The notes beneath the pieces were generated by a model. It saw nothing but the letters and a program-made list of their open reading frames with translations, made no database searches and was not told the DNA's origin. Position numbers and translations under genes: made by a program. Below are positions 743 through 21,451 of a stretch of 27,669 nt of DNA, one piece after another; the first letter of the stretch is position 1; every line of letters begins with the position of its first letter. Source of the DNA: a virus; IMG/VR virus record IMGVR_UViG_3300021964_000406, positions 1-27,669 of that record; one strand, 5' to 3'.

Positions 743-1486
743 TCATCCTACCATATCCATGACGATACCGCCATAGTTTGTTGTAACCTCCTGTTCCATT
801 CTTAGAACTTCATCGTTAGCTTCATTCCAAATTTGCTGTCCATTAAACTGTAATCCACCTGGAAGCTGCATACCTTCAAACTTTTTGAGATTCTCACCCC
901 ACTGTCTTTTAATAAGTTGGGTTGCATAGTTTCTTAACCACATATCACCATATACGTCGGTATATGTGTCTGGATCAAGTATTCTGTAACACTCAATAAC
1001 AATGAACTGGCCGGCTAGTACATCACTATTCCAATCCATATCTATATGTAATCTGTTTTTATGTCTTTGAAAACGTAAGGGTTTTTTACCAACAAAAATT
1101 TCTTCGAGCTGCTCAACATGACGCATAGCAGTTACGTAAGGAAGATATGTTGTTGAGGTAAAATCAAAGAGATCGTTTAGATGTATTTGATAACGAATAT
1201 TGAATAAATTTGATGAATTAATTGCATCACCAATATCAAATACTCTTACAACACCTATGATAGCATCACTAGTTGTAATGTATTCATTGTTAATATCATC
1301 TTGGGTAACCTGATGTTTAAGATATAATCTTTCAGTTCCATCATAGTGATAGTCCTGATAGAACTTCAATGCATCATCAATTCTATCTTCAACTTGGTCA
1401 TCATCAACATTTACATCTACTACAGGTTCACCCAATCTACGAAGACAGTAGTCTTTTAATTCTTGTCTTGAAGCTGGATTGGCCAT
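743..1486 (-). CDS. 13: Neck protein gp13 (T4-like head completion)
   Basis: The 247-aa product begins MANPASRQELKDYCLRRLG and has VDVNVDDDQVEDRIDDALKF, KHQVTQDDI, RFQRHKNRLHIDMDW and LIKRQWGENLKKFEGMQLPG near the C terminus. These are hallmark segments of the gp13 neck protein in marine T4-like phages. Its length fits the marine branch and is shorter than T4's own gp13 (about 309 aa). It works with gp14 to seal the packaged head and form the head-tail junction. A good Shine-Dalgarno (TTAGGAG) lies 7-8 bases before the ATG. The leader holds an inverted repeat that partly overlaps this site and a weak late-promoter match (described separately), so expression may switch between read-through from the fibre genes and local initiation. 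The stop is one base from the gp14 start. Confidence 0.9.
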   Translation of the reverse strand: MANPASRQELKDYCLRRLGEPVVDVNVDDDQVEDRIDDALKFYQDYHYDGTERLYLKHQVTQDDINNEYITTSDAIIGVVRVFDIGDAINSSNLFNIRYQIHLNDLFDFTSTTYLPYVTAMRHVEQLEEIFVGKKPLRFQRHKNRLHIDMDWNSDVLAGQFIVIECYRILDPDTYTDVYGDMWLRNYATQLIKRQWGENLKKFEGMQLPGGLQFNGQQIWNEANDEVLRMEQEVTTNYGGIVMDMVG

Positions 1487-1530: not shown

Positions 1531-4500
1531 TCATCTTGCATTTGCATATTTGAATGGTTGTTCTGCCATAGCCCAGAATATATGTCTTGCTGCATAGTTT
1601 TGAGCATACTGATCTCTAAACTTGATACCATTAGATACAAAATCTAAATTTCGAGTTGATACATTAACAGATTCAGCACCGCTACTTGCCGCGGCCAAAT
1701 AACTATTCATTACATTGGTAGGATATCTTGTAGTATCATATATATTCCATTCAATATTAGTAGTAGTTGCGTCTGCTATCATTAACCATGCCGGTTTAAA
1801 TCCTAGGTGTACATAGGTCCCATCCGCGGATGCATTTCCGGTATAAAATCCAAATTTAGAAAATCCTGGTACTGATTTGAATGCATATAACATTTTGGTT
1901 TGTCCACTGGCAGAAGTATCAGCATGAGCACCCATGTAACCACCAAATGCAAAAGCACTAGCTGTAGGGGCTGTATCATTGAGATGATTTATACCAGGAT
2001 TAAATTCTGCGACACCTGTATCAAGATTCATAATATGTGTACCTGCAGCTGCATTAGCTAATCCAGTGTGCCAAACAAACCAGTTTACATTATGGCCACG
2101 ATCTGTAGCTATAATCATATCAGGTGTCTGACCTAATCCATGATCAATAGTACCAGTTCCAGCTGATGCAGTATAGGTAACAATACTTAAACCAACTCTT
2201 TTGTCAACAAGTCTTTTAGCATCTGTAAAACCTGAGCCAGAAATAGCTGAGTTAGCTTCTTCAACAACATCGTCATGCATACACCAATTCCAGGCAACAT
2301 AAGATTCACCTGCAGTATTGACTTGTACATCATTCCCAATCTGGAAACCACCAGGTAAAAACTTTTGTAGAGTATTTACTTCGGTTGTCTCTGCAGCATT
2401 AAGATCTGGATGAGCTACTTTTGTTGGACCTCTTAATTGATCAAACAACATATGTGAATCTGTTGAATCTCTGTTCTTGATCCATGTGATTACAGGAGTT
2501 TTTCTTCTTGCTATACCTTTAGTACCTTTAGCTGGAAAGTTATCTGTATTTAATGCTTTGTATCCAGCTGGCGGTGTATACTTAAATTCTGCACCTAAGC
2601 CATCAGTATTTGCACTAGCTGCAATTTGTCCAGCAAACGAACTATCCTGGCCAAAGTTATATCTATTGCCTCTTGTAGTTGCACCAACATATCTAACAAA
2701 CATCTTTTGACCTTGAGTTTCAAAGCCGTGTGTATTGCCTTCTTGTGATCCATTACGATAGAAAGAAACTTCTTTGTCATCCATATTAACTGCTACACCA
2801 AAAATAGTACCAGCTGTATGAGCAGTCAAACTAGATTGTAAAGTTGTTGCTGTTGAACCAGATGATCCAAGAATAGAACCAGAACCAGCATAACCAATAC
2901 GAGGAGTATCGGCCTGTGGATATGGAGATGTACCTGAAACTACTGTATCTTCACCTTGAATTAGAATCTGTGAATCTTCAACATTACCACCACCAGGTGT
3001 TTCAATATACACTTCATAATAATACTTGCCAACATCTGGTATAGGCATAGAACCAAACACTGCTTGGTAATCTGAACCTGCTGATGCTTTCAAGTTACCT
3101 TCTGACATAGTAACAGTGCCTTTACGGCCACCAAGTGTCATAAAGTTTCTGGTTGGTGTGTCAATAACTGTATTAGCAGTTGCAAGATTAACTGGAGTAA
3201 AGTGGTTATTGTTTGCTGAACTATCACCTATACCGCCAAGACCTGGACGAAGATCTGGGTTTTCAAACTCTAAATGGAATCCATTCTGCCCATGATTGCC
3301 AGTAAATGTTTTTGGAATCCATGTTTCTGTTGAAGGATCTGTTTGGCCAAAGGATGTTGGATCTAGTGCTTGCCCGTCCACGAAGTGAACGTCTGCCATA
3401 TAGCCGTCTAGCTGAAGTCCCGCGGGATTAATTCTATACCCAATGTAATGTGCTATATTCGTGTTAAATTTACTATCTAAATTTGAGCCTGGATTAGATG
3501 ATGAGTCAAATTCTGTTACCCGTTCACCGTCAACGTAAATACGCATACGGTCTGCTGCTGTTCCATTTGCAGTATCCCAAACACAAACAATATGATACCA
3601 AACACTAGTATCTCTTAACTTCTTAGTAGTTACTTTGTAATGATTATTTGAGCCATCATTATGTTCAAAATAAACCCTGTCAGTACTAAACACAATTTGA
3701 ACTGAGTTATAATTTGCTGAAAATAATGTACCGTCTACTAGGTTACCACGTTTTACCCATGAGCTCCATGTCCACGCTTTAGTGTTGCCACTAGAGCCAG
3801 GAGTTCTAGTTAAGTGAGGAGTATCACCATCCTCAAATCTAATTGCATTGTTGACTGTCTTAACTTCATTCAACGGCAAGAACTGACCAACTCTTTGGCC
3901 ACCTCCATCACCTTCATATAGTGTTGTATAGAAGAATGAGTTTTCAATTGACTCGTTTCGAGGTGTATTTACTGGTTCTGGTAGATTACTTACTTTGAGT
4001 GCTTTGAAACCCGTTGGAGGCTGATATTTGAAATCTCCTCCTGCAGATTGTGAATATCCATTGGCACCTGTTACATTACCACCAAACGTAGCATCTTGTC
4101 CAAAGTTAACTGTATAAGTTTCATTGTAAGAACCGCCCCTTGTTAGAGATGGTACAACGGGTGATAATGCAGCACTAAGCGTTGAAGAAACATCTAACCC
4201 ACCTGTTCCTGCACCAGGATCTGCACTATTAAAGTACGTTCCATTTTTAGCGTAATAAAATCTTTCATTATCAACATCTAACAAAATTGAATATATATCG
4301 CCATTAGTTGCAACATTTGTTCCAGTCGACCCATATCCACCCGATTGGCCACTGTTATCTAATAAAACCTGTTCATTATATGTGCTAAAATATATTCCTT
4401 TAGAACTTGAGGATTCATCAACACCCAAACTTGTATCTGTACCCCATCCCATGTAAGTACCGCCGCCAGAAGCATATGAGTCAACACGAACTTCATAATA

Positions 4501-5415
4501 CCATTTTCCACTTAAAGGTAGATCCAGTGTACCATGCGTTGCTCGATTATTTGTACTGGTAGCTAATTTTAAATTACCCTCAGAGTGAGTGCCAATAGTG
4601 CTGTAAGCAATCGAATTTAGTGTACAGAAGTTGTTTGTAGGACTGTCAACAATTTGATCAGATGCTGTTAATCCTGAAGTAGCAAATGTTGCAAATGTAT
4701 TACCCGTTGCAATATTCTTACCTAAGTCGGATGAGTCAGCAAAATCTAAATGGAATCCATTAGTGCCATAAGTAACACCAGTAACTTGTTTTGGAATCCA
4801 AATACCGTTTTTATTCTCACCAAAATATTCTGGACCGTAAAGAGTTCCATCTATTACATGCATTTCTGCAAGATACCCGTCCCAATAGTGCGATGCATCA
4901 TCGACATTTCTGCCGACCATTGTTGTTTGGCCTGTTTTCAAAACATTTAAAACTTGATCTTCTGGGGTAAATGATGGTGCTTCGTTTGTTAATTCTTGAC
5001 CATTCAACCAAACCCGATTTCTAGCTGATGCTACAGCGTTTGTTGAATCGCCTTGATATACTATGTGATACCAAGCTGCTGTGTCACGAAACAATCCCTC
5101 ACTGCGAAAACCTACATAACCAGTGTCAAAACAGTTGGCTTGCAGTTTATCAGATTGCAAACGTATTTCACCAGCACCCCCGTTTCTAGAGTGTAAAATA
5201 ACTGCTCTGCCAGAAGTTGATTTCAAATTGCCTAGCTTAAACCAAACACTGACTGTTATCAGTTTATTGTTTGTCTGAGTTGTTGAGTAGGCTTTGCTAA
5301 GATACGCACCGTCACCATCCTCAAAACGCAAGGACTGATCGATTGTCTTATTATAGAAAGTCGCGCCAATAGCTTGTGGAGAACCTTGCCTTAGTGTATC
5401 ACTACCAAAACCCAT
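1531..5415 (-). CDS. Giant tail/receptor-binding protein with tandem LamG-SPRY modules (copy B)
   Basis: The 1294-aa protein has a visible repeat architecture. A concanavalin/LamG-like domain spans about residues 28-195 (SVWFKLG, AWYHIVYQ, RVWLNGQ, YWDGYLAEMHVIDG). A SPRY-like domain spans about 270-475 (GKWYYEVRV, GDIYSILLDVDN, FYYAKNG). A linker at about 482-525 contains GDGGGQRVGQFLPLNEVKTV. A second LamG (about 527-690) and second SPRY-like domain (about 765-955) follow. The C-terminal region (about 960-1294) starts GIARRKTPVITWIKNRDSTD and ends HIFWAMAEQPFKYANAR, a tail type I know from marine phages. LamG and SPRY folds commonly bind glycans or proteins, so a host-recognition role is likely but inferred. 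It is a paralogue of the 1279-aa gene at 6063-9902. The ribosome site TAAGGAG overlaps the stop codon of the preceding 199-aa adaptor, 7 bases before the ATG, so the two are probably translated together. Confidence 0.82.
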   Translation of the reverse strand: MGFGSDTLRQGSPQAIGATFYNKTIDQSLRFEDGDGAYLSKAYSTTQTNNKLITVSVWFKLGNLKSTSGRAVILHSRNGGAGEIRLQSDKLQANCFDTGYVGFRSEGLFRDTAAWYHIVYQGDSTNAVASARNRVWLNGQELTNEAPSFTPEDQVLNVLKTGQTTMVGRNVDDASHYWDGYLAEMHVIDGTLYGPEYFGENKNGIWIPKQVTGVTYGTNGFHLDFADSSDLGKNIATGNTFATFATSGLTASDQIVDSPTNNFCTLNSIAYSTIGTHSEGNLKLATSTNNRATHGTLDLPLSGKWYYEVRVDSYASGGGTYMGWGTDTSLGVDESSSSKGIYFSTYNEQVLLDNSGQSGGYGSTGTNVATNGDIYSILLDVDNERFYYAKNGTYFNSADPGAGTGGLDVSSTLSAALSPVVPSLTRGGSYNETYTVNFGQDATFGGNVTGANGYSQSAGGDFKYQPPTGFKALKVSNLPEPVNTPRNESIENSFFYTTLYEGDGGGQRVGQFLPLNEVKTVNNAIRFEDGDTPHLTRTPGSSGNTKAWTWSSWVKRGNLVDGTLFSANYNSVQIVFSTDRVYFEHNDGSNNHYKVTTKKLRDTSVWYHIVCVWDTANGTAADRMRIYVDGERVTEFDSSSNPGSNLDSKFNTNIAHYIGYRINPAGLQLDGYMADVHFVDGQALDPTSFGQTDPSTETWIPKTFTGNHGQNGFHLEFENPDLRPGLGGIGDSSANNNHFTPVNLATANTVIDTPTRNFMTLGGRKGTVTMSEGNLKASAGSDYQAVFGSMPIPDVGKYYYEVYIETPGGGNVEDSQILIQGEDTVVSGTSPYPQADTPRIGYAGSGSILGSSGSTATTLQSSLTAHTAGTIFGVAVNMDDKEVSFYRNGSQEGNTHGFETQGQKMFVRYVGATTRGNRYNFGQDSSFAGQIAASANTDGLGAEFKYTPPAGYKALNTDNFPAKGTKGIARRKTPVITWIKNRDSTDSHMLFDQLRGPTKVAHPDLNAAETTEVNTLQKFLPGGFQIGNDVQVNTAGESYVAWNWCMHDDVVEEANSAISGSGFTDAKRLVDKRVGLSIVTYTASAGTGTIDHGLGQTPDMIIATDRGHNVNWFVWHTGLANAAAGTHIMNLDTGVAEFNPGINHLNDTAPTASAFAFGGYMGAHADTSASGQTKMLYAFKSVPGFSKFGFYTGNASADGTYVHLGFKPAWLMIADATTTNIEWNIYDTTRYPTNVMNSYLAAASSGAESVNVSTRNLDFVSNGIKFRDQYAQNYAARHIFWAMAEQPFKYANAR
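3335..3363. repeat. 29-bp exact direct repeat, copy 1 (partner at 7837-7865)
   Basis: Twenty-nine identical bases recur 4502 bp away in the same orientation, inside the second LamG domain of each giant gene (encoding DPTSFGQTDPS). A further near-identical stretch (CCAGTAAATG TTTTTGGAATCCAT) lies just to its left in both copies. It marks the paralogy of the two genes and could serve as a recombination site. Confidence 0.85.
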
Positions 5416-6062: not shown

Positions 6063-9000
6063 TCATCTTGCATTTGAATATTTGAATGGGGATTCTGCCA
6101 TTGCCCAGAATATATGTCTTTGATTACTACCATTTGTTTCACCATAAGTACCATTACGAATTTTAAAACCGTTACTTAAAAAATCTACATGAAGAAGATT
6201 TGATGTGTATGTAGCATTATTAAGACTTGCAAATAATGGAAATTGCATTTGATTATAAGAGTCTCTCTTATTATCATATATTAACCAATTTGTAGCTCCA
6301 TTTGCAGTATTCTTTAAAAATAAAAATCCCGGTTTGAACCCGCAAAATGCAAATGGACCATCTGCGTTATTATTTCCAATATAAGATCCTATTTTTGAAT
6401 AACCTGGCACACTATGAAAACAATAATACACAAAATCATTACCTATGGTATTGTAAGTTGATCCATTTACAGATATTACTGTACTTGATGGTGGTGTATC
6501 TTGAAAATAACTATTTGGTCCATTGTCAAATTTAGCACCAGCCGTGTTTAAATTTAAAAACGACCTTCCGTCTGTACCGCCATCAAATTTATGATATACT
6601 ATCCAGTTAGATACTGTTTCTAAAGATGCCACCATTATCATTTCTGGTGCTTGACTCAATCCATGACCCACTGTACCATTTGCGCCTGTGCCAGTAAATT
6701 TTACTATACTGAAACCAAGTCTTCTGTCTGCTAATCCAGTAGCTGTAATAGATCCAGCTGGTGACATTGTTTGTGGCCCGGCATTGACTATTTCATCATG
6801 CATACACCAATTCCATGCAACATATGACTCACCTGTTGTATTAACCTGAACGTCATTACCAATTTGGAAACCACCAGGTATGAATTTCTGTAATGTATTT
6901 ACTTCGGTTGTTTCTACTTGATGTGTGTCTGGATCTGAATGTATTACTTTTGTTACTCCACGTACTTGATCAAACAACATATGTGAATCAGTAGAGTCTC
7001 TGTTTTTGATCCATGTAAACACTGGAGTTTTTCTTCTTGCTATACCTTTAGTACCCTTGGCTGGAAGATTATCAACATTGAGTGCTTTGTATCCAGATGG
7101 TGGAGTGTATTTGAATTCAGCACCCAGTCCGTCTGTATTAGCAGCAGGAGATAAATTTCCAGCAAACGATGAATCTTGACCAAAATTATAAGTATGTGCA
7201 CCATTTTGATAAACTAAGCTATATGAAGAAAATTCACCACTTAATCCAGTCCAAACAGGATTACCAGAATTCTCTGCTGTACCATTTTTATACATGTACA
7301 GATCACCATTATCCATATCTAATGCAACACCAATAATATCTCCTGCTGTCCATGTACCTACTAAACCACTATAATTAGTACCATTGTTTCGGAAAATTGA
7401 ACCAGCTGTTACCCAACCATACATATCAGCTGAGTTATAAAGTGCATAGTTATCACTAGGAAGATTGTTTGGATGTTTTGCTATACCAACAATATTTGAA
7501 CCAGCCTGAGCTCTAATATAAACTTCCCAATACCATTTTCCATTTCTCACTTTTTGTGTGCTTACCATTCCAGGATTAGTGCTTGTCTGTGTTGAGTAAA
7601 CATCCAAGTTACCTTCAGAAAAGACTTGTGATTGAGAGTTTATATAATTAGGATCTTTTGTTGCAAAGTTTCTGGTTGGAGTATCAATAACTGTATTTGC
7701 AGTTGTAAGATTAACTGGAGTAAACGAATTAGTGTTAGCAGAATCAGCACCAACTTCATTATTCAAGAACTCTAAATGGAAACCATTTTGACCATGGTTA
7801 CCAGTAAATGTTTTTGGAATCCATTGCTCTGTGGATGGATCTGTTTGGCCAAAGGATGTTGGATCCAACGCTTGCCCATCTACAAAGTGAACGTCAGCCA
7901 TATAACCATCCCAGTATGAAGCATAGCGCTGAGCTCCAATCTTATGAATTACGTTACTGTTAAATTTATACTCATCATCTAAATCTGGATTGGTTCTAGA
8001 TGAAAAAGATGTTTCTTCAGTTCCATTAACATAAATTCTAAGTCTTTGATCTGCAGTAGGATTTGATGTGTCCATACTACAAACAACATGGTACCAAACT
8101 GATGAGTCTTTTAATTTTCTATTGGTAATTAACAGAGCATTACCTCCACCACCATTCTCAGCAATAAATTCTATATTACCATCTGTACCTAATCTTATTA
8201 CACTATCTGGTGTAGATGTATCAGCATTGAAAAGTGGAGGATAGTTCGTAGCTGCTGGATTAACCTTAATCCAAGCTGAAAATGTAAATGTTTTTCTATT
8301 ACTAGCAGAAGGCGTTCTATACATATAAGCACTATCATCATCATTAAATCTAACAGAGTTGTTAACAGTCTTTACTTCATTCAACGGCAGGAACTGACCA
8401 ACTCGTTGGCCACCACCATTGCCTTCATACAATACTGTATAGAAGTATGAATTCTCAATTGAATCATTTCGAGGTGTATTTACCGGTTCAGCTAAATTAA
8501 ATGCTTTTACTTCTTTATAAGAATCATCACCATGACTCCAAAGACTTCTCTCAACTCTAATCTTGTGGCCCCCAGATACATTAATACCATTACCACTGAA
8601 GATAGTCCAATCTGTTCCAGTAAGTCCAGAGTCATAAAAACCAGTACCTGCATCTGGATCACCTGAATTAAACCATGTACCATTACGACCAATATAAAAC
8701 TTACCAGCCTTGATTAAATACATCCAAACATCATTAGCTGCACCAGCCACACCTAAAGTAGCTGTTTCAACACCATCAAGATAATACCAGAATTGATTAC
8801 TACCGCCAGCACCTCTTCGGTAAACACCCCACCAACCGGATCGGTCTGAGTCACCAGGAATACCACCATATTGGTTTATTGAATCTGTAAAATTCATCAT
8901 ACCATGAGTACAACCAGCACCCGGAGTACCTGTATGGGTTACTTCAAAATAATATCCATTTTCATCTTCTGCATCAAATGTTACTGTTCCTGCATATCCT

Positions 9001-9902
9001 GAACCGCTACCTCCTTCTTCTAGTCCACCTTCACGTATATCATTACTTGATGCATTTGTATACTTGTTTACGGCTGATAGTATAGCCATATTGTTAGTAG
9101 GACTGTCAGGAAGTATGTCATCAGCACCTATACCAGAATCTGTAAAGTGATTATCATTTCCACTTGTATCAGCACCTACAGTTGATGCAGATGCACCACC
9201 TGTTCCTGTTTGTTTGAATTCCAATCTATATCCATTAGCACCATATGTAACATTAGGTTCTTTTGGAATCCACACTCCGTTCTTATTCTCACCGAAATAT
9301 TCTGGACCATAACTTTGACCGTCACAAAAGTTTATTTCTGCTAAGTATACATCAGCTCCAGGATTACCATTAGCTATACCAGTCTTACCACCCCAGTTTT
9401 GAGTCACACCACTTGCATTTATAAATGACCATGTAGATTGTGAAATTCCATCTGTAGAAGTATCAGTTTCTAAAACTCCATTAACATACCATCTTAGTTT
9501 ATCAGCTGTTGCAACTTGGTTCAAATCTGCTCTAAAAACAAAATGATACCAAGTACTAGTATCTCTAATAACACGGTTCCAGTTTTTATTTCTAGCACCT
9601 GGCAATTCAGTTTGATGTGTTAATTGTTCAGATGCGTTAAGTGCAAAAAAACTATATGCTGAGCCACTAGTTCCAGCACTGAAGAATTCAGTAGCAGCTT
9701 GACCGGCTTCTGGATCCCAAAACTTTATCCAAAAACTCATTGTCCATATAGAAGTACTATCTGGAGTACCGGCTGACCATTGCAATGTTGTATTATTATC
9801 ATTACTCATACGCAATGAATTGTCAATAGTCTTATTATAGAAAGTTCCTCCAATAGCTTGAAGAGAGCCCATTCTATTTGATGCATCGGTTCCGAATGCC
9901 AT
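6063..9902 (-). CDS. Giant tail/receptor-binding protein with tandem LamG-SPRY modules (copy A)
   Basis: The 1279-aa protein has the same order of modules as the 1294-aa gene at 1531-5415. LamG spans about residues 28-205 (SFWIKFWDP, STWYHFVFR, RWYVNGV). A SPRY-like region follows at about 270-470 (NGYYFEV, FYIGRNGTWFN), then a linker with GNGGGQRVGQFLPLNEVKTV at about 505-525. A second LamG (about 530-695) and second SPRY-like domain (KWYWEVYI, GDIIGVALDMDN, LYMYKNG) come next. The C-terminal region starts GIARRKTPVFTWIKNRDSTD and ends HIFWAMAESPFKYSNAR. Both ends and the linker are most alike between the two paralogues, while the domain faces differ. That pattern is expected if scaffold is conserved and binding surfaces vary. 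The ribosome site TAAGGAG overlaps the stop of the preceding adaptor. A structural receptor-binding role is inferred; catalysis is not evident. Confidence 0.82.
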   Translation of the reverse strand: MAFGTDASNRMGSLQAIGGTFYNKTIDNSLRMSNDNNTTLQWSAGTPDSTSIWTMSFWIKFWDPEAGQAATEFFSAGTSGSAYSFFALNASEQLTHQTELPGARNKNWNRVIRDTSTWYHFVFRADLNQVATADKLRWYVNGVLETDTSTDGISQSTWSFINASGVTQNWGGKTGIANGNPGADVYLAEINFCDGQSYGPEYFGENKNGVWIPKEPNVTYGANGYRLEFKQTGTGGASASTVGADTSGNDNHFTDSGIGADDILPDSPTNNMAILSAVNKYTNASSNDIREGGLEEGGSGSGYAGTVTFDAEDENGYYFEVTHTGTPGAGCTHGMMNFTDSINQYGGIPGDSDRSGWWGVYRRGAGGSNQFWYYLDGVETATLGVAGAANDVWMYLIKAGKFYIGRNGTWFNSGDPDAGTGFYDSGLTGTDWTIFSGNGINVSGGHKIRVERSLWSHGDDSYKEVKAFNLAEPVNTPRNDSIENSYFYTVLYEGNGGGQRVGQFLPLNEVKTVNNSVRFNDDDSAYMYRTPSASNRKTFTFSAWIKVNPAATNYPPLFNADTSTPDSVIRLGTDGNIEFIAENGGGGNALLITNRKLKDSSVWYHVVCSMDTSNPTADQRLRIYVNGTEETSFSSRTNPDLDDEYKFNSNVIHKIGAQRYASYWDGYMADVHFVDGQALDPTSFGQTDPSTEQWIPKTFTGNHGQNGFHLEFLNNEVGADSANTNSFTPVNLTTANTVIDTPTRNFATKDPNYINSQSQVFSEGNLDVYSTQTSTNPGMVSTQKVRNGKWYWEVYIRAQAGSNIVGIAKHPNNLPSDNYALYNSADMYGWVTAGSIFRNNGTNYSGLVGTWTAGDIIGVALDMDNGDLYMYKNGTAENSGNPVWTGLSGEFSSYSLVYQNGAHTYNFGQDSSFAGNLSPAANTDGLGAEFKYTPPSGYKALNVDNLPAKGTKGIARRKTPVFTWIKNRDSTDSHMLFDQVRGVTKVIHSDPDTHQVETTEVNTLQKFIPGGFQIGNDVQVNTTGESYVAWNWCMHDEIVNAGPQTMSPAGSITATGLADRRLGFSIVKFTGTGANGTVGHGLSQAPEMIMVASLETVSNWIVYHKFDGGTDGRSFLNLNTAGAKFDNGPNSYFQDTPPSSTVISVNGSTYNTIGNDFVYYCFHSVPGYSKIGSYIGNNNADGPFAFCGFKPGFLFLKNTANGATNWLIYDNKRDSYNQMQFPLFASLNNATYTSNLLHVDFLSNGFKIRNGTYGETNGSNQRHIFWAMAESPFKYSNAR
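7837..7865. repeat. 29-bp exact direct repeat, copy 2 (partner at 3335-3363)
   Basis: Identical to 3335-3363 and in the same orientation, in the second LamG domain of the 1279-aa gene. Confidence 0.85.
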
Positions 9903-11207: not shown

Positions 11208-13448
11208 TTAGAATGCTCTAAATCTACCAGTTTGTCTACCAGTATCAAGAACTGTTGAACCAGTAAAATTGGCGCGGGTTAAGAGTGGGTTAGCAACTGA
11301 AAGTGCCGTTTTTCCAAAGAAACCAGCTGTTCCATCTTCATAGAAAGTTACATAAGCTCCAGTACCAAGACTAGATGTATCTAGGTTACCACGTAAACCA
11401 CCCATATGTGTAGCTTTTTGTGACATTGGCCCAAAATGCTGGCTAGTTGGCCCACCGTTAATTAAATCATTTACTGGTGTTAGCTCATCAGCAAATAATG
11501 TTTTACCTCCAGTTTCGAATGCCTCGTGATTACCACCTGTAGGAGTGCCACTATGATTTATACCCATTCCGGTATTATCAGCATTTGTAAATGTTGCTCC
11601 AGCTGCTTTTACTCTTCCATCTTCTGTCATTACAGCACAACCAAGTTCCTGAGAATTTGTAGCATAACCACCCCACCATTGTAGATATTCTACTTGACCA
11701 TTAAGTGAAGACCAATCAGAAAGTAAAGGAAAAGTAGCAGAATTTATATCATCATCAATGCGATCAGTTACGGTCCCGCGCGCATCACCATTTTGATTAA
11801 ACATTCCTGATGTTGGATAATTTGTCAGAGCATCTCCAATTACAAAGATATCATGATCATAATTCTGCCATGCTACATTACCGTTAAAAGCGTTCTCACC
11901 TTCCGACATCCATATATTCTGAACATCTTGGAATACATCAGCCATAGAGGCTATTGTTGGATGCTGCTTTTTATATGAATTATAAAACATTTGAGAGACT
12001 TCAGCAAATCCAGGTACTCTATCATTACCATCATCAGCTGCTGATACACCTCCAAAAAATACTTCACCTGTAGAGTCGGCATTACGAGATCCAGAAATAT
12101 GTAAACTACCATCGTTCATAAGTAAAATTGTACTACCATAATAATTATGCATAGCAGTTAATTTCTTTAGTCCACCATGTTTACCACAGTCAAAAACAGG
12201 CGTTGGTCTTCTTACATAATCATATTCTACACCAAGCTGACTCATGTGGTTTTCACCCCATGCCCATAATATACCATTGTTATCTAAAGCAAAAACACCT
12301 TGTCGGCCATTGGTTGCAGGACCCATAAAAGTCCAAATATCAATGATAGGAGAACCACCAAACCAATTATTATAATCTAACTTAAATGGAGTGCCTGAAT
12401 CAGTATCAAATGCCGGTGCGTTTTCAGGATGACCCCAGCCAGTAGCACCATAAGTAGAATCACCCCAAGTCCAAACATTGCCATCTGAATCTAAAGCTAA
12501 ACAATTACCATCGACACTACGATCTTCGCCAATAAATGCAGTTGCAAGTTTAACTATAAATGAATCTCTAAATGTTCCTGCTGAAATAGCCGCATTCCAA
12601 TTTGTACCTGTTGAAGTATTATCTTTACCTACTGTGCTTGGACCATAATTACGTGTACTATTTGTATCTCCTGTACCACCCATCTTGTTTGTATTATATC
12701 CGCTATGAAAAACTTCACCATTATTAGATAGGTACCAAGCATTTCTTGATGTTGCGGCTATCTGGATAATTTCATTTTCACCAGTAATAGGTTGTTTATC
12801 ATGCTCAAGAAAATCGGTCCAAGGCATTGAGAAAATTCTAGCACGTCTACTAAATATCTGCGATGCGGCCGCGGGATTTGTTCCAAGAAAATAATGACCA
12901 GCTGTTGTGTTATATTTTCCACCAAAATGGCAAGGGTTACCATCCCAATCAACAAGAAAACATCCTTGTATTCCCTGCTGCGTCGGAGCATCTGTTCCAT
13001 AATGTCTATCCCAACCTAGCGGAGCTTGATTACCAACTAATGGAACAAATTTACCAGGGTTAGACATTCTTGGACTTTTTGCAACTCTAGTCCATTTGTT
13101 TGTTAGTGCACCATGATCATAAACTGGGTGAATACCTCTACCTCCAGTTACACAAACATACCAGTCACCTTTATAAGAAACCAAATCACCTTTATGATAA
13201 GTTCTCTGAGGACTCCATCCACCTCTGTTTACATTACCGTTAGTATGGTTTTCCCAAAAGTTAGATTTACCAGGCTCATAATAATAACCTTGATATCTTT
13301 CGTTAGCACCTTCATCACTTTTAGCATACCATGTTCTACCTCTATGACGTACAACATCATGCCGGCCATAAACAACATGCGGTTTCCAATCACCTTTCCA
13401 CGTGTATTTGAAAGTTGCTGGGTTTAAATTTTGTCCGCCGAAATGCAT
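11208..13448 (-). CDS. RCC1-like repeat protein with two N-terminal carbohydrate-binding-like modules (third copy)
   Basis: The 746-aa product starts with two short aromatic modules at about residues 14-66 and 76-121. Each has the pattern W-x-x-x-x-x-Y-x-x-x-D-hydrophobic-V-x-x-x-x-x-x-W-Y (YTWKGDWKPHVVYGRHDVV; GGWSPQRTYHKGDLVSYKG), resembling the small CBM5/12-type chitin-binding fold. A connector containing PLGWDRHYG follows. Several RCC1-type repeats come next: YLSNNGEVFHSGYNTN, LALDSDGNVWTWGDSTYGA (about 317-335), FALDNNGILWAWGENHMSQLG (about 386-406), and later ones such as MTEDGRVKAAGATF. RCC1 repeats build beta-propellers that bind proteins or other ligands. A tail-tip receptor-binding role is inferred from position between fibre genes. 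It follows a 168-aa orphan, with a ribosome site AAGGAAT before the ATG. Confidence 0.75.
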   Translation of the reverse strand: MHFGGQNLNPATFKYTWKGDWKPHVVYGRHDVVRHRGRTWYAKSDEGANERYQGYYYEPGKSNFWENHTNGNVNRGGWSPQRTYHKGDLVSYKGDWYVCVTGGRGIHPVYDHGALTNKWTRVAKSPRMSNPGKFVPLVGNQAPLGWDRHYGTDAPTQQGIQGCFLVDWDGNPCHFGGKYNTTAGHYFLGTNPAAASQIFSRRARIFSMPWTDFLEHDKQPITGENEIIQIAATSRNAWYLSNNGEVFHSGYNTNKMGGTGDTNSTRNYGPSTVGKDNTSTGTNWNAAISAGTFRDSFIVKLATAFIGEDRSVDGNCLALDSDGNVWTWGDSTYGATGWGHPENAPAFDTDSGTPFKLDYNNWFGGSPIIDIWTFMGPATNGRQGVFALDNNGILWAWGENHMSQLGVEYDYVRRPTPVFDCGKHGGLKKLTAMHNYYGSTILLMNDGSLHISGSRNADSTGEVFFGGVSAADDGNDRVPGFAEVSQMFYNSYKKQHPTIASMADVFQDVQNIWMSEGENAFNGNVAWQNYDHDIFVIGDALTNYPTSGMFNQNGDARGTVTDRIDDDINSATFPLLSDWSSLNGQVEYLQWWGGYATNSQELGCAVMTEDGRVKAAGATFTNADNTGMGINHSGTPTGGNHEAFETGGKTLFADELTPVNDLINGGPTSQHFGPMSQKATHMGGLRGNLDTSSLGTGAYVTFYEDGTAGFFGKTALSVANPLLTRANFTGSTVLDTGRQTGRFRAF

Positions 13449-13459
13449 GTTTTTATTCC

Positions 13460-13966
13460 TTAAACATTAAAAGTATAAGTGTTTGCAAAATTGTAACCAA
13501 AAGCCTCTGCATCTACTTGTGCTTGTACGGTATTTGCTGTTAAAGGATCCATAAATCTTTCACATATCTGATCAGCTGCTTCTGTATATATTTCTGTATT
13601 AGAGGATTCTTCACCGGGTTTTAATATAATTAAGTTTGTATCTGCTTCACTAAGTGGTAATGATTCTTCTGCATAACCATATTCTGTCTTTTCAGCAGTT
13701 GTCCATGTAACAAAACTATTATCTCTCACTGCAAAATAACTCTTATCATTTATGTCACCTATATGTAAACATGAACTATTTAATGGATTATCAGTGAAGA
13801 AATCAGAATTGATTTTATCAAAATTAATAGTTGTTTCAGTACCATCGCCAAGTATTACATTTTTACTAACTGTAGTAGTTTCAACATAACGAGAGTTCCA
13901 ACCGGGCCACTTATTAGTAAACGGAACTGCTGTATTATTATTTATAGAAAAAATTAATCTAGCCAT
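13460..13966 (-). CDS. Unrecognised 168-aa protein between two RCC1-like genes
   Basis: I do not recognise this 168-aa protein. It begins MARLIFSINNNTAVPFTNKW, is acidic through the C-terminal half (SLPLSEADTNLIILKPGEES, EAADQICERFMD) and ends AFGYNFANTYTFNV. No membrane segment, signal peptide or metal motif is visible. The ATG at 13966 shares its A with the TGA stop of the 778-aa gene (TGATG), so it is probably translated by ribosomes finishing that gene; a TTG 12 bases upstream in frame would overlap further and is not preferred. Its place between two RCC1-like giants suggests a partner, trimerisation aid or chaperone for one of them, but nothing in the sequence proves this. Confidence 0.7.
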   Translation of the reverse strand: MARLIFSINNNTAVPFTNKWPGWNSRYVETTTVSKNVILGDGTETTINFDKINSDFFTDNPLNSSCLHIGDINDKSYFAVRDNSFVTWTTAEKTEYGYAEESLPLSEADTNLIILKPGEESSNTEIYTEAADQICERFMDPLTANTVQAQVDAEAFGYNFANTYTFNV

Positions 13967-16302
13967 CACGACCCCCAATACATAAAGTCAGCAAGAGCAC
14001 GTGCATCTTCTTCTCTACCATCACTAATTAAACTTGCAGTATATGTACCAAAATGTTTTAATCGTCCATCTTGAGTAAGAACAGTACAAAACCATGGATA
14101 GTAAGTACTGGTACTATACACAAATGCGTGGCCATCAGCTCTAACATCAATTGCTTTTGAACCATCTTTATGCATGTATGATGGAACGGCTATTTCTTTC
14201 CATCCATATTGTGATACATCAGTTCTTCCTGATCTTGAACCTGCGCCATCTCTCTGTGCAATATCATAATTAGTATTATTATTACCTAATTCACCTAAAC
14301 CAGATGTATAAGTAGCACCATTCTGAGGCATAACTAATACATCTCTATCTTTTGTGAGACAAATTAATGCACCAGATCGGTTACCACCTGTATCATTATG
14401 AATCTTAATGGGGAAAGATATATCGTTACTTATAACAGGTGTTGATTGATTAGTTGTTCCAGTAACAGTTCCGTTGTTGAGTTCATAAAAGCCATTATGT
14501 CCTACACCATATACAGCTCCGTTGGCTTGAGCAGTCCAAAGGTTACCAAAGTTATAATGACCTGTTGCCCACATATTAACCGTGGTGTTGCCTTGCGGCC
14601 AACTTGTTCTTCTGTACGTAGCTGGACTTGCTGCTACATCTACCGTGTTATTATGATTAGTAGTTGAACCATCACCTAAATTACCAACACCATTATATCC
14701 CCAAGACCAAACATGACCATGGCCATCTAGTATGTAAACAGTTTGGTATTGTTCCCAGCCAGAAATAATAACTTTTTGAATTCCATTATATGCATTCCAA
14801 TCTAAATCAATTTTACGGAATATAGAACAATGTGTTGCTGTTTGTGTACCCGTATTAGTTGGATGTCCAAGTTGACCCAAATTATTATAACCACAAGTCC
14901 AAAGATATCCAGCTTGTGTAAGAACCATACTCATTCCGAATGTTTCACCAACGGCCCAACAATCTACAATTCTTTCATTTTCAAATTGTGACATTGGTAT
15001 TTTAGTTGGTGATGTTACATCAACTACTCTATCTTCAGCAAAACCACCCAAAAATGAAGTTTTTGGATCATCTCCTAATTCAGGACCAACACCACATTGA
15101 CCATAACTATTATCACCCCATGTCCAAATTTCACCGTCTTCATCAAGTGCAATTGCATGTCCTTGATTAAGTGTCGCCACGGCCGAGGTGGTAAAATCAC
15201 CACACGCCATGGCTAGTTTAACTATTCTTTTATTACCAAAATCTTGTTTACTGTAAGAATAATTACCAGATGTATGTTCCTGAACTTCAGAAGCACCGCC
15301 TGGATTAGAAGTAGAATTAAAACCACCAGTAACACCTAAAGTAATAGTTCCATCACTCATAAGAGAGCCATGTGCAGCACCACCTGCAATTGACATAATA
15401 GTTGGCCAACCTGAAGTACCTGGTGTATCAAATACATTTTGAAGTGCTGGTAAAGTGTATTCATCAGCATTCACATATTGATTATCAGTGTCATGTCCTC
15501 CATATAGCGGACTTGTTCTTACAGCTGTATCATAATAGAATCTTGAATGTACATTTGGATCGTACGGAAGAGATATTTCACCTCCTTGGCTTGGAGATGT
15601 ATTATATGGTGCACTATAGTAACCACCCCAACCCCAACCAGCAATACTTCCATCCCATTTTACACCAACAAAGCCTCCATGAGTAGTCATGGTTGAAGGT
15701 GTTGCTGCATTGTAAAGTTCACTTTGGCCATTAGCTCCATACGTATTCAATGGAATATTACCATTCCACGTATTTGCCCAACCGGTATTAGCATGAAGAC
15801 TTAGTTTTGGATGACCTCTCCAACCTACTGGATTTTCATTTACAAGACGAGTAATTTTTCTATCATGTATAACAGGACCACCTTCTATGTAAAGTTCCCA
15901 TGTTCCGTAATGGTTAAATACAGGGTCATCGCCTTTAGAAGTTCTTTTAGCGTAATATGCTGCACCAGAAGCCCCAGTTACAACTTGACCAGTAAGATAG
16001 ATATTACTGTTTGACCAATTGCCTACATACTCACCAAATTGGTTTTCTGATTCAAAGTAATCCCAATATGTAGTATTTACTTTGAACTTTTTCATAGCTG
16101 GATCACGTACTTCTGCAGCGGCTGAATATTGCCAGTTAGTGTCTCTAATCAATGGATCATTGTTTGATGTACTAGTTCCATTCTTATAGATAAACTTAGC
16201 ATTTTGATAAACAACAATATCATCAACATTGTAAGTAACAGTGTTGGAGTAGTCACCTTTAAATTCAAATTTTACTTTACCTAAATTAATTATGGTTGCC
16301 AT
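13966..16302 (-). CDS. RCC1-like repeat protein with two N-terminal carbohydrate-binding-like modules (second copy)
   Basis: The 778-aa product begins MATIINLGKVKFEFKGDYSN. A first module spans about residues 10-62 (YSNTVTYNVDDIVVYQNAKF) and a second about 92-138 (VGNWSNSNIYLTGQVVTGA, YYAKRTSKGDD). Both resemble small chitin/cellulose-binding folds. A connector with NENPVGWRGHP follows, matching the PLGW connector of the third copy. RCC1-type repeats include IALDEDGEIWTWGDNSYGQCG (about 384-404), LTQAGYLWTCGYNNLGQLG (about 461-479) and YILDGHGHVWSWGYNGVGNLG (about 523-543). The C terminus has LTQDGRLKHFGTY. This copy has the clearest RCC1 signature of the three. Its TGA overlaps the ATG of the 168-aa gene. 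The ribosome site is AGGAG, 7 bases before the ATG. Function as a receptor-binding protein is inferred. Confidence 0.78.
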   Translation of the reverse strand: MATIINLGKVKFEFKGDYSNTVTYNVDDIVVYQNAKFIYKNGTSTSNNDPLIRDTNWQYSAAAEVRDPAMKKFKVNTTYWDYFESENQFGEYVGNWSNSNIYLTGQVVTGASGAAYYAKRTSKGDDPVFNHYGTWELYIEGGPVIHDRKITRLVNENPVGWRGHPKLSLHANTGWANTWNGNIPLNTYGANGQSELYNAATPSTMTTHGGFVGVKWDGSIAGWGWGGYYSAPYNTSPSQGGEISLPYDPNVHSRFYYDTAVRTSPLYGGHDTDNQYVNADEYTLPALQNVFDTPGTSGWPTIMSIAGGAAHGSLMSDGTITLGVTGGFNSTSNPGGASEVQEHTSGNYSYSKQDFGNKRIVKLAMACGDFTTSAVATLNQGHAIALDEDGEIWTWGDNSYGQCGVGPELGDDPKTSFLGGFAEDRVVDVTSPTKIPMSQFENERIVDCWAVGETFGMSMVLTQAGYLWTCGYNNLGQLGHPTNTGTQTATHCSIFRKIDLDWNAYNGIQKVIISGWEQYQTVYILDGHGHVWSWGYNGVGNLGDGSTTNHNNTVDVAASPATYRRTSWPQGNTTVNMWATGHYNFGNLWTAQANGAVYGVGHNGFYELNNGTVTGTTNQSTPVISNDISFPIKIHNDTGGNRSGALICLTKDRDVLVMPQNGATYTSGLGELGNNNTNYDIAQRDGAGSRSGRTDVSQYGWKEIAVPSYMHKDGSKAIDVRADGHAFVYSTSTYYPWFCTVLTQDGRLKHFGTYTASLISDGREEDARALADFMYWGS

Positions 16303-16311
16303 TATTTACTC

Positions 16312-18555
16312 CTAGTTACCTGGCAAAAAGACGGTACCGCCTTTTGTTTCAATATCTGTACCTTGTGTTGGAAAATCACCCGGAGCTGAATAGTTGTCAA
16401 GCCCATAGTAAGTTGCTCCTGTAGCAATAACTCTTCCTACATCTTTATCAAAGTATATAGCCGCACTAGTTGCTTGAGTATAACCTCTTGTTTGTAATGA
16501 AATTCTATAAGGATTAACACCTGGGAAAACTCTTAGGTTTTGATGATAATAATATTGTTCTGTTGCTGAAGCTGAAGGTTTAGGTAAATCAGCATCTAGG
16601 GTATTAGTAGTGGGGCTAGCCGCGCTACCTAATTCAAAAACATTACCGTATTGATCACCTTGGAAATACCATCTTGTCTTATATCCATTTTGATTTGTTA
16701 TACTTGTATCTGCTATATATTGTTCCAAACCTATACCTATATGGACAGCACCAGTACCGGTAATAGCTTTTACATTTACAATATTTGATATAGTAGCACC
16801 GTAGCTATCTAGAGGTTGTACAAAAGATTGTTGATCTGTTGCATTACCTTGACCAAGAACATAGTTAGCACCATCACCACAAGCATAAAGATCATTATCT
16901 GTTTGTGACGTTCCTTTTGTTGCAAAAGTGACATGATCGCCAGTGCCAGTACCGGAGCCACCAAATACCCAAACATTTTGCCAATCAGTGTCAGACCCAA
17001 CTTGTGTTGGTGATGATCTAACGCTTGTATCACCTTGACCTAATGCACCTGCGGCATTTTCACCCCAAGTCCATAATGTACCGTTACCAGCAACAACTGC
17101 GGCAACATTACGCTGATTACCAGCAGTAGCAAACTTTTTGATACCACCTACTGTACCCCAGTCTTTGACTAATGTCCAGACTGGTTTACTAACTAAATCT
17201 CCTACACCTAACTGACCATGAACATTGTAACCACATGCATACATTTTACCTGTATCGGTAAGAACCCATATTCTACCATAGGTACCACCATTGGCCCATA
17301 TATCTACAGGATTACCAAAGGCGGCCTGATCCCAACCGTTGGCACCTGTTGTTATATGTGTTGGAACTGTATTATCTACTGACCCAGCTGCTGCACCTTG
17401 ACCATAATGATTATCACCTGAATGCCAAATTTCATTTGTATTGTTTGCCCCATATGAAATAAGAGCATAAGTTGCTGTATCAGTATTAGTTGCATTTCCT
17501 AATGTCATAGCAATTCGAATAGCTTTTTTGCCTCTAAGAACTTTTGTTTCACCGGTTCTGTTTACGTTTGCATAACCCCATCTATTAAAAGCACCATTTT
17601 GTTCAGTATCAGTGGTAGTACCTCTACCAGCTTGGCCCTTGGTGTTAGCACCATAGTAATGTACTTCACCATTGTTAAACAATACGAACATACCAGCGTA
17701 ATCTTTAAGTAACATTGAAACTTTAGGAGGTTCCCCATCTGGTGTATCAAGCACACCATCAAGATAATCTAAATGTCTAAACGGTACTTCAGATGTAGTC
17801 CAAAAATTATCAACCTGTTCAAAAGGTGGGCTACCTGCAGTTGCATTTGCGGCATCACCTGGAATAGTAACAGGTAAAAAGTTTTTATTTATAAAACAAC
17901 ATCCACCCATGAAATACTGAGTTGAATCGGTCACCCCATACCCATACGTATCACCAAACCAAGCTGGGGTTGAGTTACCAACCATATTATTACCAGACCA
18001 CTGACTTCTAAGGATATAACCTGAGTTAGGAAAAGGTTCCGCGCAATCTGGATGTACTAATGCGGTTTTGTTAGGACTTGCTGTACCAAAAGCAATACGA
18101 TCCCAATCAGTAGTTGGGTTTGCTGTTGTATTAGCTGGCGGTAAAGTTGTTGATGCAACATTAACTCTATATGTACCACTTACACCATTATTAGCAATGT
18201 ATTGAACATTGTCACCGTGATAATATGTTCCTGAACGCCAGTATGAATTTGTTAAATGCCCATGTGAGCTTCTATCTGTTCCAAACATAAATGTGTTCGA
18301 ACTTTTGTAACCTGTTTCACCTCTGTTTGCATCTCCACCTAAACCAGAGTGTGAATACAATGTCCATTCAGTACCGGCAGAACCTGGATTATCTGAATTA
18401 GTTGTAACTCTATCTTGTGGACTTGTCGTTGAAGATGTGTTAGCATTACAAATATAAGTTTGGCCCTTATACTGCACCATGTCGTCTGGTTTATAGTTTG
18501 TACCAGAAACCCAGACGCCTCTCCAATTAAATCTTAATTTACCTATATGAGCCAT
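16312..18555 (-). CDS. RCC1-like repeat protein with two N-terminal carbohydrate-binding-like modules (first copy)
   Basis: The 747-aa product opens MAHIGKLRFNWRGVWVSGTN, giving a first small module (about residues 8-66; NYKPDDMVQYKGQTYIC). A second, more diverged one lies at about 104-156 (YWRSGTYYHGDNVQYIANN, TTDWDRIAFG). RCC1-type repeats follow: VLFNNGEVHYYGANTKGQAG (about 291-310), EIWHSGDNHYGQG (about 375-387), VLTDTGKMYACGYNVHGQLG (about 431-450), GNGTLWTWGENAAGALGQG (about 490-508) and DLYACGDGANYVLGQGN. The N-terminal modules resemble CBM5/12-type domains; the propeller could present a receptor-binding face. Its ATG overlaps the stop of the 216-aa adaptor (TAATG), tying its synthesis to that adaptor. 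It and the two downstream relatives form a tandem family. Confidence 0.78.
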   Translation of the reverse strand: MAHIGKLRFNWRGVWVSGTNYKPDDMVQYKGQTYICNANTSSTTSPQDRVTTNSDNPGSAGTEWTLYSHSGLGGDANRGETGYKSSNTFMFGTDRSSHGHLTNSYWRSGTYYHGDNVQYIANNGVSGTYRVNVASTTLPPANTTANPTTDWDRIAFGTASPNKTALVHPDCAEPFPNSGYILRSQWSGNNMVGNSTPAWFGDTYGYGVTDSTQYFMGGCCFINKNFLPVTIPGDAANATAGSPPFEQVDNFWTTSEVPFRHLDYLDGVLDTPDGEPPKVSMLLKDYAGMFVLFNNGEVHYYGANTKGQAGRGTTTDTEQNGAFNRWGYANVNRTGETKVLRGKKAIRIAMTLGNATNTDTATYALISYGANNTNEIWHSGDNHYGQGAAAGSVDNTVPTHITTGANGWDQAAFGNPVDIWANGGTYGRIWVLTDTGKMYACGYNVHGQLGVGDLVSKPVWTLVKDWGTVGGIKKFATAGNQRNVAAVVAGNGTLWTWGENAAGALGQGDTSVRSSPTQVGSDTDWQNVWVFGGSGTGTGDHVTFATKGTSQTDNDLYACGDGANYVLGQGNATDQQSFVQPLDSYGATISNIVNVKAITGTGAVHIGIGLEQYIADTSITNQNGYKTRWYFQGDQYGNVFELGSAASPTTNTLDADLPKPSASATEQYYYHQNLRVFPGVNPYRISLQTRGYTQATSAAIYFDKDVGRVIATGATYYGLDNYSAPGDFPTQGTDIETKGGTVFLPGN

Positions 18556-19205
18556 TAAAATGTCACCGTTAAAAATCCAGTTGAGCTAATTGTTGTATTT
18601 GACCTTGCGCTAAAGAATGCTTGCACATATGGGTCTGTCATATTTATATTGTTATTTGAATTATAGAAAGAAACATCCAAGTCACCATTTGCAGTTTCTG
18701 AAATAACTGTAACACCATTTATACTACCACCGCTAGAACCACCAACACCAGAAAGACCAACAACATTAGCACCAGTAAAGTTAACATGGGTAGTATTAGC
18801 AAAGACAATGTTTGCGCCTGAGAAAACAACGTTGGAGGATGCTACTTGTAAAACATCATTTAACTTAGGACCAGTTACAGCACCGTCTGCAATAGATCTT
18901 GTAAGAACTGCATTATCAGAAGCCATACCTACATTTAATGTATCACCAAGTAGATATGCGAAGAATGTTGTACCAGCTGTAGGAGCAGTAGTAAATGTAA
19001 TTGAACTACCAGATACAGTAAAGTCTACTGTTGGTTTTTGAATAACACCACCAAGGCTCACAATGAGCCCGTTAGGGACAAATACGTTTTGTGGATCCCC
19101 ACCGTTCTTTAAAACAAATGTAGTTAAAGTACCATTAAATTGAGATGAGATATCATCAATTTGTGTATATCTACCTACTTGTGGTTGTCTTCCTAGATAA
19201 GCCAT
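18555..19205 (-). CDS. Fibre adaptor protein preceding the RCC1-like array
   Basis: The 216-aa product begins MAYLGRQPQVGRYTQIDDIS. It continues with FNGTLTTFVLKNGG, GLIVSLGGVIQKPTVDFTVS and ITFTTAPTAGTTFFAYLLGD, the common N-terminal domain of marine phage tail-fibre proteins that attach to the tail. After ADGAVTGPKLNDVLQVASSN come fibre-like repeats including IVFANTTHVNFTGANVVG. That segment is identical at the protein level to part of the 199-aa adaptor at 5427-6026. A distinct C-terminal domain ends TTISSTGFLTVTF. The stop overlaps the start of the 747-aa RCC1-like gene (TAATG), so I infer that this protein joins the RCC1-like proteins to the tail. The ribosome site AAAGGG lies upstream. 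Confidence 0.75.
   Translation of the reverse strand: MAYLGRQPQVGRYTQIDDISSQFNGTLTTFVLKNGGDPQNVFVPNGLIVSLGGVIQKPTVDFTVSGSSITFTTAPTAGTTFFAYLLGDTLNVGMASDNAVLTRSIADGAVTGPKLNDVLQVASSNVVFSGANIVFANTTHVNFTGANVVGLSGVGGSSGGSINGVTVISETANGDLDVSFYNSNNNINMTDPYVQAFFSARSNTTISSTGFLTVTF
18641..18648 (-). promoter_or_regulatory. Candidate late promoter inside the 216-aa adaptor gene
   Basis: The minus strand reads TATAAATA, an exact match to the T4 late-promoter core, about 86 bases before the ATG of the 747-aa RCC1-like gene. Being inside a coding region of AT-rich DNA it may be chance, but it would allow the RCC1 array to be transcribed apart from its adaptor. Confidence 0.4.
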
Positions 19206-20824: not shown

Positions 20825-21451
20825 TTACCAACTATTAGAAGATAGCTGTCTGTTATTTCTATTCACTTTCAAGTTAAATGCAACAGATACTCTTTCTTTA
20901 TCGGATTCGTTGACTTGAACATTATGAAAAACATGTCCAGGAAAAATAACCATTGAATCTTCAGTAGGAGTATGTGCATATTGCAATCGACTAAACGGAG
21001 TGTCGTTTAGTAGTGGTGTTGAGTAAAAAGGCATATACTGTTTGATTGGATCATTGCTATAGAAAACAATATCACCACTATCTTCTGGAACTTTTAAGTA
21101 AATAACAACTGCAAAATCAGCACCTGGATGATTATGAATATGGTTCCAGTGATCAGGGTCATTAATATTCATCCAAATACCATCAACTGCAAAGCTAGTA
21201 CTTGCTTCTATCCCAAGAAAACCGATAGCAGCAGTAACATCTTTCATTGCTTGACTCATAAGATCAGCAACTACTTCATCGGAAGGATTTAGGAAGTCAG
21301 ATTGGAAACCGCCAGCGTTGCTGCTTTCTTTTGCAGGGTATTGTCTTGCATTTTCAATAAAACGGTTTTTTTCTTCGAATTTAAAATCTTTAACAAATAA
21401 AGGGACGGCAAATAAGGATTCAATCCTCTTATTCTCATTATCACTATTCAC
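20825..21451 (-). CDS. Putative 2OG-Fe(II) oxygenase
   Basis: The 208-aa product starts with a GTG supported by a GAGGAT ribosome site 7 bases upstream; the next in-frame Met lies far inside. It has a short N-terminal ESLFAVPLFVKDF opening typical of the TIGR02466-type putative 2OG-Fe(II) oxygenases. WMNINDPDHWNHIHNHPGAD with FAVVIYLKVPEDSGDIVFYS follows (about 93-132). The distal part is VIFPGHVFHNVQVNESDKER then VSVAFN (about 168-193). Likely iron ligands are in the HNHPGAD segment (His106 and/or His108) and His176; Arg187 would bind 2-oxoglutarate. Such enzymes hydroxylate proteins or small molecules and recur near tail-fibre genes of marine phages; the substrate is unknown. It lies between a tail-fibre-assembly-like gene and an unrecognised gene, so acting on fibre proteins or host surface molecules is possible but unproven. 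Confidence 0.85.
   Translation of the reverse strand: MNSDNENKRIESLFAVPLFVKDFKFEEKNRFIENARQYPAKESSNAGGFQSDFLNPSDEVVADLMSQAMKDVTAAIGFLGIEASTSFAVDGIWMNINDPDHWNHIHNHPGADFAVVIYLKVPEDSGDIVFYSNDPIKQYMPFYSTPLLNDTPFSRLQYAHTPTEDSMVIFPGHVFHNVQVNESDKERVSVAFNLKVNRNNRQLSSNSW

Follow-up and report, generated by a model that had tools for sequence, protein, structure and literature searches.

The viral record IMGVR_UViG_3300021964_000406 (IMG/VR) contains three large genes, here called A, B and C, whose products join small N-terminal modules of the CBM5/12 type (N-modules) to repeats of the RCC1 type, and the locus raises the question of what such proteins do for a phage. An initial annotation, made from the sequence alone, had read the three genes as an adjacent array in a T4-like fiber region and had proposed a receptor-binding system with alternative or combined heads joined to glycan-binding modules. 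The analysis presented here covers a stretch of 27,669 bases (the window) and compares it with related viral and bacterial contigs, cultured phages and solved protein structures.

Gene content and genomic setting

Every substantial gene called in the window lies on the minus strand, and the three large genes are real ORFs of 747, 778 and 746 aa in which the repeat strings quoted by the initial annotation and the PVGW and PLGW connectors were found (Table 1). Adjacency holds only for A and B, since a gene omitted from that annotation (gene i; 168 aa, 13460-13966) separates B from C. The start of gene A shares one base with the upstream gene, and the ATG of gene i shares one base with the stop of gene B (TGATG), overlaps that resemble those of a tightly packed operon. 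PHROG matches to fiber and virion families were observed throughout the window and flank the cassette on both sides, and T4-type neck genes (gp13-like and gp14-like) lie downstream of it on the same strand, at the low-coordinate end of the window. Judged from these neighbors, A, B and C lie within a structural gene cluster, as the description of a T4-like fiber region had anticipated. The predicted gp13-like product belongs to phrog_211, a family present in 10 of 17 related records, and this assignment places the window in the T4-like structural cluster.

Table 1. Coordinates of the A-B-i-C cassette, its predicted domains and two context genes in the window.
Feature	Residues (aa)	Window coordinates	Strand	Description	Basis
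Gene A		16312..18555	-	747 aa; N-modules and RCC1-type propeller	ORF, Pfam, orthologues, PDB profile (UVR8/HERC2)
A first N-module	3-67	18355..18549	-	CBM5/12 type, conserved W at end	
A second N-module	104-157	18085..18246	-	Degenerate; better kept in orthologues L013, L026, L032	Sequence
A propeller region	286-716	16408..17700	-	Seven blade-like repeats	By eye
Gene B		13966..16302	-	778 aa; N-modules and RCC1-type propeller	ORF, Pfam, orthologues, PDB profile
B first N-module	7-58	16129..16284	-	Best match All3316/Cis13 tail-fiber-like protein	Family profile
B second N-module	92-142	15877..16029	-	Partly degenerate	B-family profile vs ChiA1 chitin-binding domain, E 0.005
PVGW connector of B		15820..15831	-	W161 invariant in B family	
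B propeller	301-757	14032..15402	-	Seven strand groups	Low-confidence model
Gene i		13460..13966	-	168 aa, acidic, pI ~4.2	ORF between B and C
Gene C		11208..13448	-	746 aa; two N-modules and weaker RCC1-type propeller	ORF, Pfam, PDB profile
C first N-module	13-70	13239..13412	-		Pfam CBM_5_12, PDB profile
C second N-module	74-124	13077..13229	-		Above Pfam CBM_5_12 cut-off
PLGW connector of C		13011..13022	-	P143, G145, W146 invariant in C family	
C propeller	225-716	11301..12776	-		Pfam, PDB profile, low-confidence model, Foldseek
Gene directly upstream of A		18555..19205	-	216 aa; tail-fiber/virion N-terminal family	phrog_18673
T4 gp13-like head-tail adaptor		743..1486	-	Context gene	phrog_211

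Other features of the window were also recorded. Two paralogous giants (1531-5415 and 6063-9902; 1294 and 1279 aa) carry DUF7483 and SPRY domains and both match phrog_19943, with a laminin-G domain detected in the first, and this pair is another internal duplication within the fiber region. A 2OG-Fe(II) oxygenase (PF13759) is encoded within the same region at 20825-21451, and Synechococcus phage S-SRM01 likewise encodes such an oxygenase close to its RCC1 genes. In a promoter scan of the window, TATAAATA was seen 4 times against 3.7 expected, which is chance level, with all four sites (13939, 17886, 18641 and 23046) on the gene strand, and sigma-70-like sites were at shuffle level.

RCC1-type propellers

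RCC1 repeats occur far beyond chance in all three proteins. RCC1 or RCC1_2 was matched above the curated Pfam cut-off in each of A, B and C, and WD40_RLD gave E-values of 4e-29 (A), 9.5e-42 (B) and 1.4e-17 (C), strong matches that nevertheless fall under that profile's own 150-bit cut-off. Family profiles built from 15 (A), 14 (B) and 16 (C) sequences and run against all solved structures retrieved mainly RCC1-fold chains (e.g., UVR8, HERC1/2 and RCC1), with best E-values of 4e-57, 3.5e-33 and 4e-41, respectively. AlphaFold models of B and C, made from shallow four-row alignments, were poor (pLDDT 32 and 39), and we relied on them solely for the rough arrangement of strands and for fold matching. 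RCC1-fold chains ranked top in Foldseek searches with both models (E to 1.5e-11), at target TM-scores of only ~0.3-0.5 on these poor models. The propellers proposed in the initial annotation were thus recovered by profile and fold searches alike, the latter from low-confidence models. Seven is the likely number of blades, since a relative of B (L043) contains seven repeats spaced 56-63 aa apart; the low-confidence models contain strand groups (seven in that of B) and, near aa 165-225, an additional pair of strands that may represent closure or an eighth blade. The name RCC1 carries no function, because the matched structures span RCC1-fold proteins with unrelated functions. RCC1, UVR8 and HERC2 share the repeat family and propeller fold with A, B and C, but they are eukaryotic regulators that lack virion modules.

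N-terminal modules: docking or glycan binding

When the modules of A, B, C and their relatives were isolated, 18 of 18 matched CBM_5_12 (PF02839) at E<=0.1 (best 9.7e-10); on whole proteins, C scored above the Pfam cut-off and A just under it. The initial annotation had assigned two such modules to each protein, and both are clear in C, whereas the second is degenerate in A and B. A profile pooled from the modules retrieved chitin-deacetylase and chitinase modules first from the PDB (E 3.4e-8 to 2e-5), and the terminal W is near-invariant across the modules. These observations could be taken to mean that the N-modules truly bind glycans, with each protein gripping host sugars at both ends as one of several alternative or combined receptor heads. 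However, inspection by eye indicates that most modules lack the second W of the GWxP stretch, an aromatic chitin-contact reference of CBM5/12 modules in ChiA1, and the first modules of B and C match fiber proteins better than they match chitinases. The best match of the B first-module profile in the whole PDB is All3316/Cis13 (residues 39-65, E 3.5e-6), and the short tail fiber of A-1(L) is matched weakly (residues 139-164, E 0.0045). For the first module of C, Cis13 (0.001) and another solved tail fiber (residues 29-55; 0.007) precede chitinase A1 (0.014). The Cis13 and A-1(L) matches are short, each covering fewer than 50 residues. By sequence, the N-modules fall in a family that also includes parts of virion proteins.

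The functions reported for these fiber proteins bear directly on the choice. Cis13 is a trimeric tail-fiber-like protein that attaches to the baseplate through its N-terminal domains (PMC8894136), and in the short tail fiber of A-1(L) a joint domain (residues 111-215) binds the wedges and anchors the fiber (PMC10966104). The A-1(L) residues matched by the first module of B fall within this wedge-anchoring domain, which makes docking a well-motivated proposal for the N-modules. In addition, a carbohydrate-binding module at the distal end of the A-1(L) neck fiber did not bind to host cells (PMC10966104). For gene A, docking by the first module is less certain, because this module is closer to chitin-deacetylase CBMs (6.5e-6) than to the A-1(L) fiber (0.099). 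The similarity to Cis13 is also limited to the module; Cis13, which belongs to the thylakoid contractile injection system of Anabaena, has only 154 aa, anchors in the thylakoid membrane through C-terminal helices and, unlike B, has no propeller. The solved structures that match closely include at least one baseplate-bound fiber-like protein; caution is therefore warranted, and "CBM5/12" in phage fibers need not mean sugar binding.

Conservation within the proteins points in the same direction for the clade of the window. When the window is compared with its closest relatives, identity is 95-97% in the N-terminal parts (omega 0.07-0.11) and 84-91% in the propellers (omega 0.24-0.32), and the connector region varies. 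That the N-modules are the most conserved part is expected of a dock and not of a receptor head, and the pattern would fit an anchor joined to a more variable head. We rejected a general rule by which conservation would always lie in the N-module, as it fails for A in L013/L023 and in L026/L034, and in some clades outside that of the window the pattern is absent or reversed. With the genes also inherited as a fixed and not an alternative set (see below), we consider glycan binding by the N-modules unlikely. The CBM5/12 family assignment of the initial annotation stands, while the nearest relatives of the first modules of B and C are fiber proteins, Cis13 in particular. The N-modules are probably virion docks and the propellers probably the heads.

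Distribution and co-inheritance of the cassette

Relatives were found by scanning viral contigs with sequences and profiles and then annotating the ORFs. The initial annotation had suggested looking for the same array in other marine phage genomes, and the ordered cassette A-B-i-C was complete in 20 IMG/VR contigs, T4-like cyanophages included, which represent 14 distinct sequence sets with the window among them. One acidic ORF (pI 4.1-4.6) fills the gap between B and C in every complete cassette. For gene i, Pfam and PHROGs gave no homologue of known function and no convincing PHROG family; its acidic product is probably a dedicated assembly factor or adaptor of A, B and C. The T4-type gene gp23 was present in 7 of the 15 related records tested, and genes of the psbA/psbD family were present in 4 of 18 related records, indicating that some carriers are cyanophages. 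The cassette was not found in 50,697 phage records searched by single-sequence tblastn with A, B, C and several orthologues, a search in which very near records may have been left out.

In a phylogenetic tree, one branch separates every A row from the rest (99/98), another does so for the C rows (97/96), and the B rows form two adjacent groups. The four genes A, B, C and i also have correlated pairwise distances (Spearman rho 0.64-0.91, permutation p 2e-4). The tree and the correlated distances together indicate that the duplications are older than the divergence of these phages and that the genes have been inherited together, confirming the old origin that had been deduced from DNA-level divergence. 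A fixed set inherited in this manner argues for three different components that act jointly, and the four genes, each encoding a separate part, make up an old set that is passed on as a unit. The proposal of alternative or switchable heads was rejected, given the fixed order, the correlated distances and the lack of any swap in the 14 sequence sets.

Several related contigs display variations on this arrangement. In L025 (9662-12234), gene B occurs as two ORFs (708 and 144 aa), which may reflect an assembly error or a real split. Tandem pairs of genes combining an N-module with RCC1 repeats were observed in other viral contigs (L014 and L015). In two contigs (L037:3725-8830 and L043:2988-6584), the gene immediately before A encodes a giant with tandem N-modules, demonstrating that both module classes can share one fiber cluster. 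These contig giants contain several copies of the module type seen in A, B and C but have other C-termini, with no RCC1 repeats seen, and are related to giant tail-fiber-like proteins of marine phages (S-CAM1, P-SSM2, S-SSM7 and Pelagibacter phage Mosig). Metabolic genes were also recorded near the cassette, including, a short way downstream of it in L037 (18376-20176), domains for tetrapyrrole synthesis (uroporphyrinogen decarboxylase and porphobilinogen deaminase) and radical SAM proteins upstream of it in two related contigs (L013:1314-2411 and L033:4469-5521).

Comparison with known phage RCC1 proteins

The closest parallel in gene arrangement is Escherichia coli phage W70 (Septuagintavirus), in which three consecutive RCC1-type genes (W70_237-239; phrog_4219) encode proteins identified in virions by mass spectrometry; these are about half the size of A-C (~40-43 kDa), and an N-module is not mentioned in the part of the source consulted (PMC11370258). 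RCC1-like virion proteins are also present in GAP32 and phAPEC6 (PMC5259590, PMC7247149), and Clostridioides difficile phage LIBA6276 has a 1,627-aa RCC1 protein beside a tail fiber gene. In S-SRM01 (Kyanoviridae), three RCC1 genes (gp335, gp337 and gp344) lie just downstream of baseplate wedge and tail-fiber genes, and gp336 (L124:14834-15478), acidic with a pI of 4.6, sits between two of them much as gene i does. Unlike A-C, the S-SRM01 proteins have only 344-405 aa and lack the N-module, with only ~29% identity to B over a third of B, and thus the module is not needed for RCC1 proteins of the tail region. A scan of bacterial contigs yielded mostly RCC1 proteins that aligned over the propeller only, but three prophages were informative. 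In Pseudovibrio, Lautropia and a Comamonadaceae bacterium, an N-module is followed by RCC1 repeats (with tandem pairs in two of the three), and the genes are located between the tape measure and a gpJ-like tail-tip gene, these neighbors being named from sequence. The prophage versions consist of one or two genes of ~550 aa, with a long tape-measure-like gene present and no gene i recognised. Phage RCC1 arrays are therefore already known as virion proteins, and what is new here is the N-module-joined, three-paralogue, four-gene form.

These locations also bear on where A, B and C might act. They could be lateral decorations, neck or collar fibers, or adhesins for non-receptor surfaces instead of receptor-binding parts of the baseplate, as the gp13 and gp14 neck genes downstream on the same strand and the A-1(L) neck fibers, with their distal carbohydrate-binding module that does not bind the host (PMC10966104), might suggest. 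We regard this as quite unlikely, as the module matches indicate baseplate-attached fibers, the prophage genes lie between tape measure and tail tip, and baseplate wedge genes precede the RCC1 genes of S-SRM01. That the RCC1 proteins condense or organize DNA within the head, in keeping with the PHROGs label "regulator of chromosome condensation" (category DNA metabolism) and with the DNA ordering or packaging suggested by the phAPEC6 and W70 authors (PMC7247149, PMC11370258), is very improbable for propellers that are fused to virion-fiber-type modules amid fiber genes, have a predicted pI of 5.3-5.8 in the window proteins, unlike most DNA-binding proteins, occur near the tail tip in prophages and match RCC1-fold proteins of unrelated function.

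Proposed role of the cassette and implications

The interpretation that we favor, with moderate confidence, is that A-B-i-C encodes a fiber set docked by its N-modules, with the propellers directed at the host and i acting as assembly factor or adaptor. The cassette would form one conserved unit in the structural region of a T4-like phage, and A, B and C would be three non-interchangeable fiber proteins on the tail or baseplate. Docking would occur via the N-terminal CBM5/12-like module or modules, the short connector (PVGW or PLGW in B and C) would link dock to head, and the C-terminal seven-bladed RCC1-type propeller would touch the host surface, while the small acidic protein i would be dedicated to assembling or adapting A, B and C. 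The three proteins would accordingly be components of the virion, possibly as trimers or as a hetero-complex, and a receptor-binding role, exerted through the propellers, is probable. A more specific version, offered tentatively and still doubtful, is that A, B and C, with i as chaperone or adaptor, constitute a single hetero-oligomeric tail device for receptor recognition. It would be built from three RCC1 paralogues of ancient origin that co-evolve, and its carriers would be uncultured T4-like cyanophages and related phages, with no example among the cultured phage records that were searched.

Several cultured phages have RCC1-like proteins in their virions, but these proteins are catalogued under DNA metabolism, and papers describing them have guessed at DNA packing. 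A cassette that joins the propellers to fiber-type modules, in cyanophages among others, makes a role in the tail or in receptor binding directly testable.
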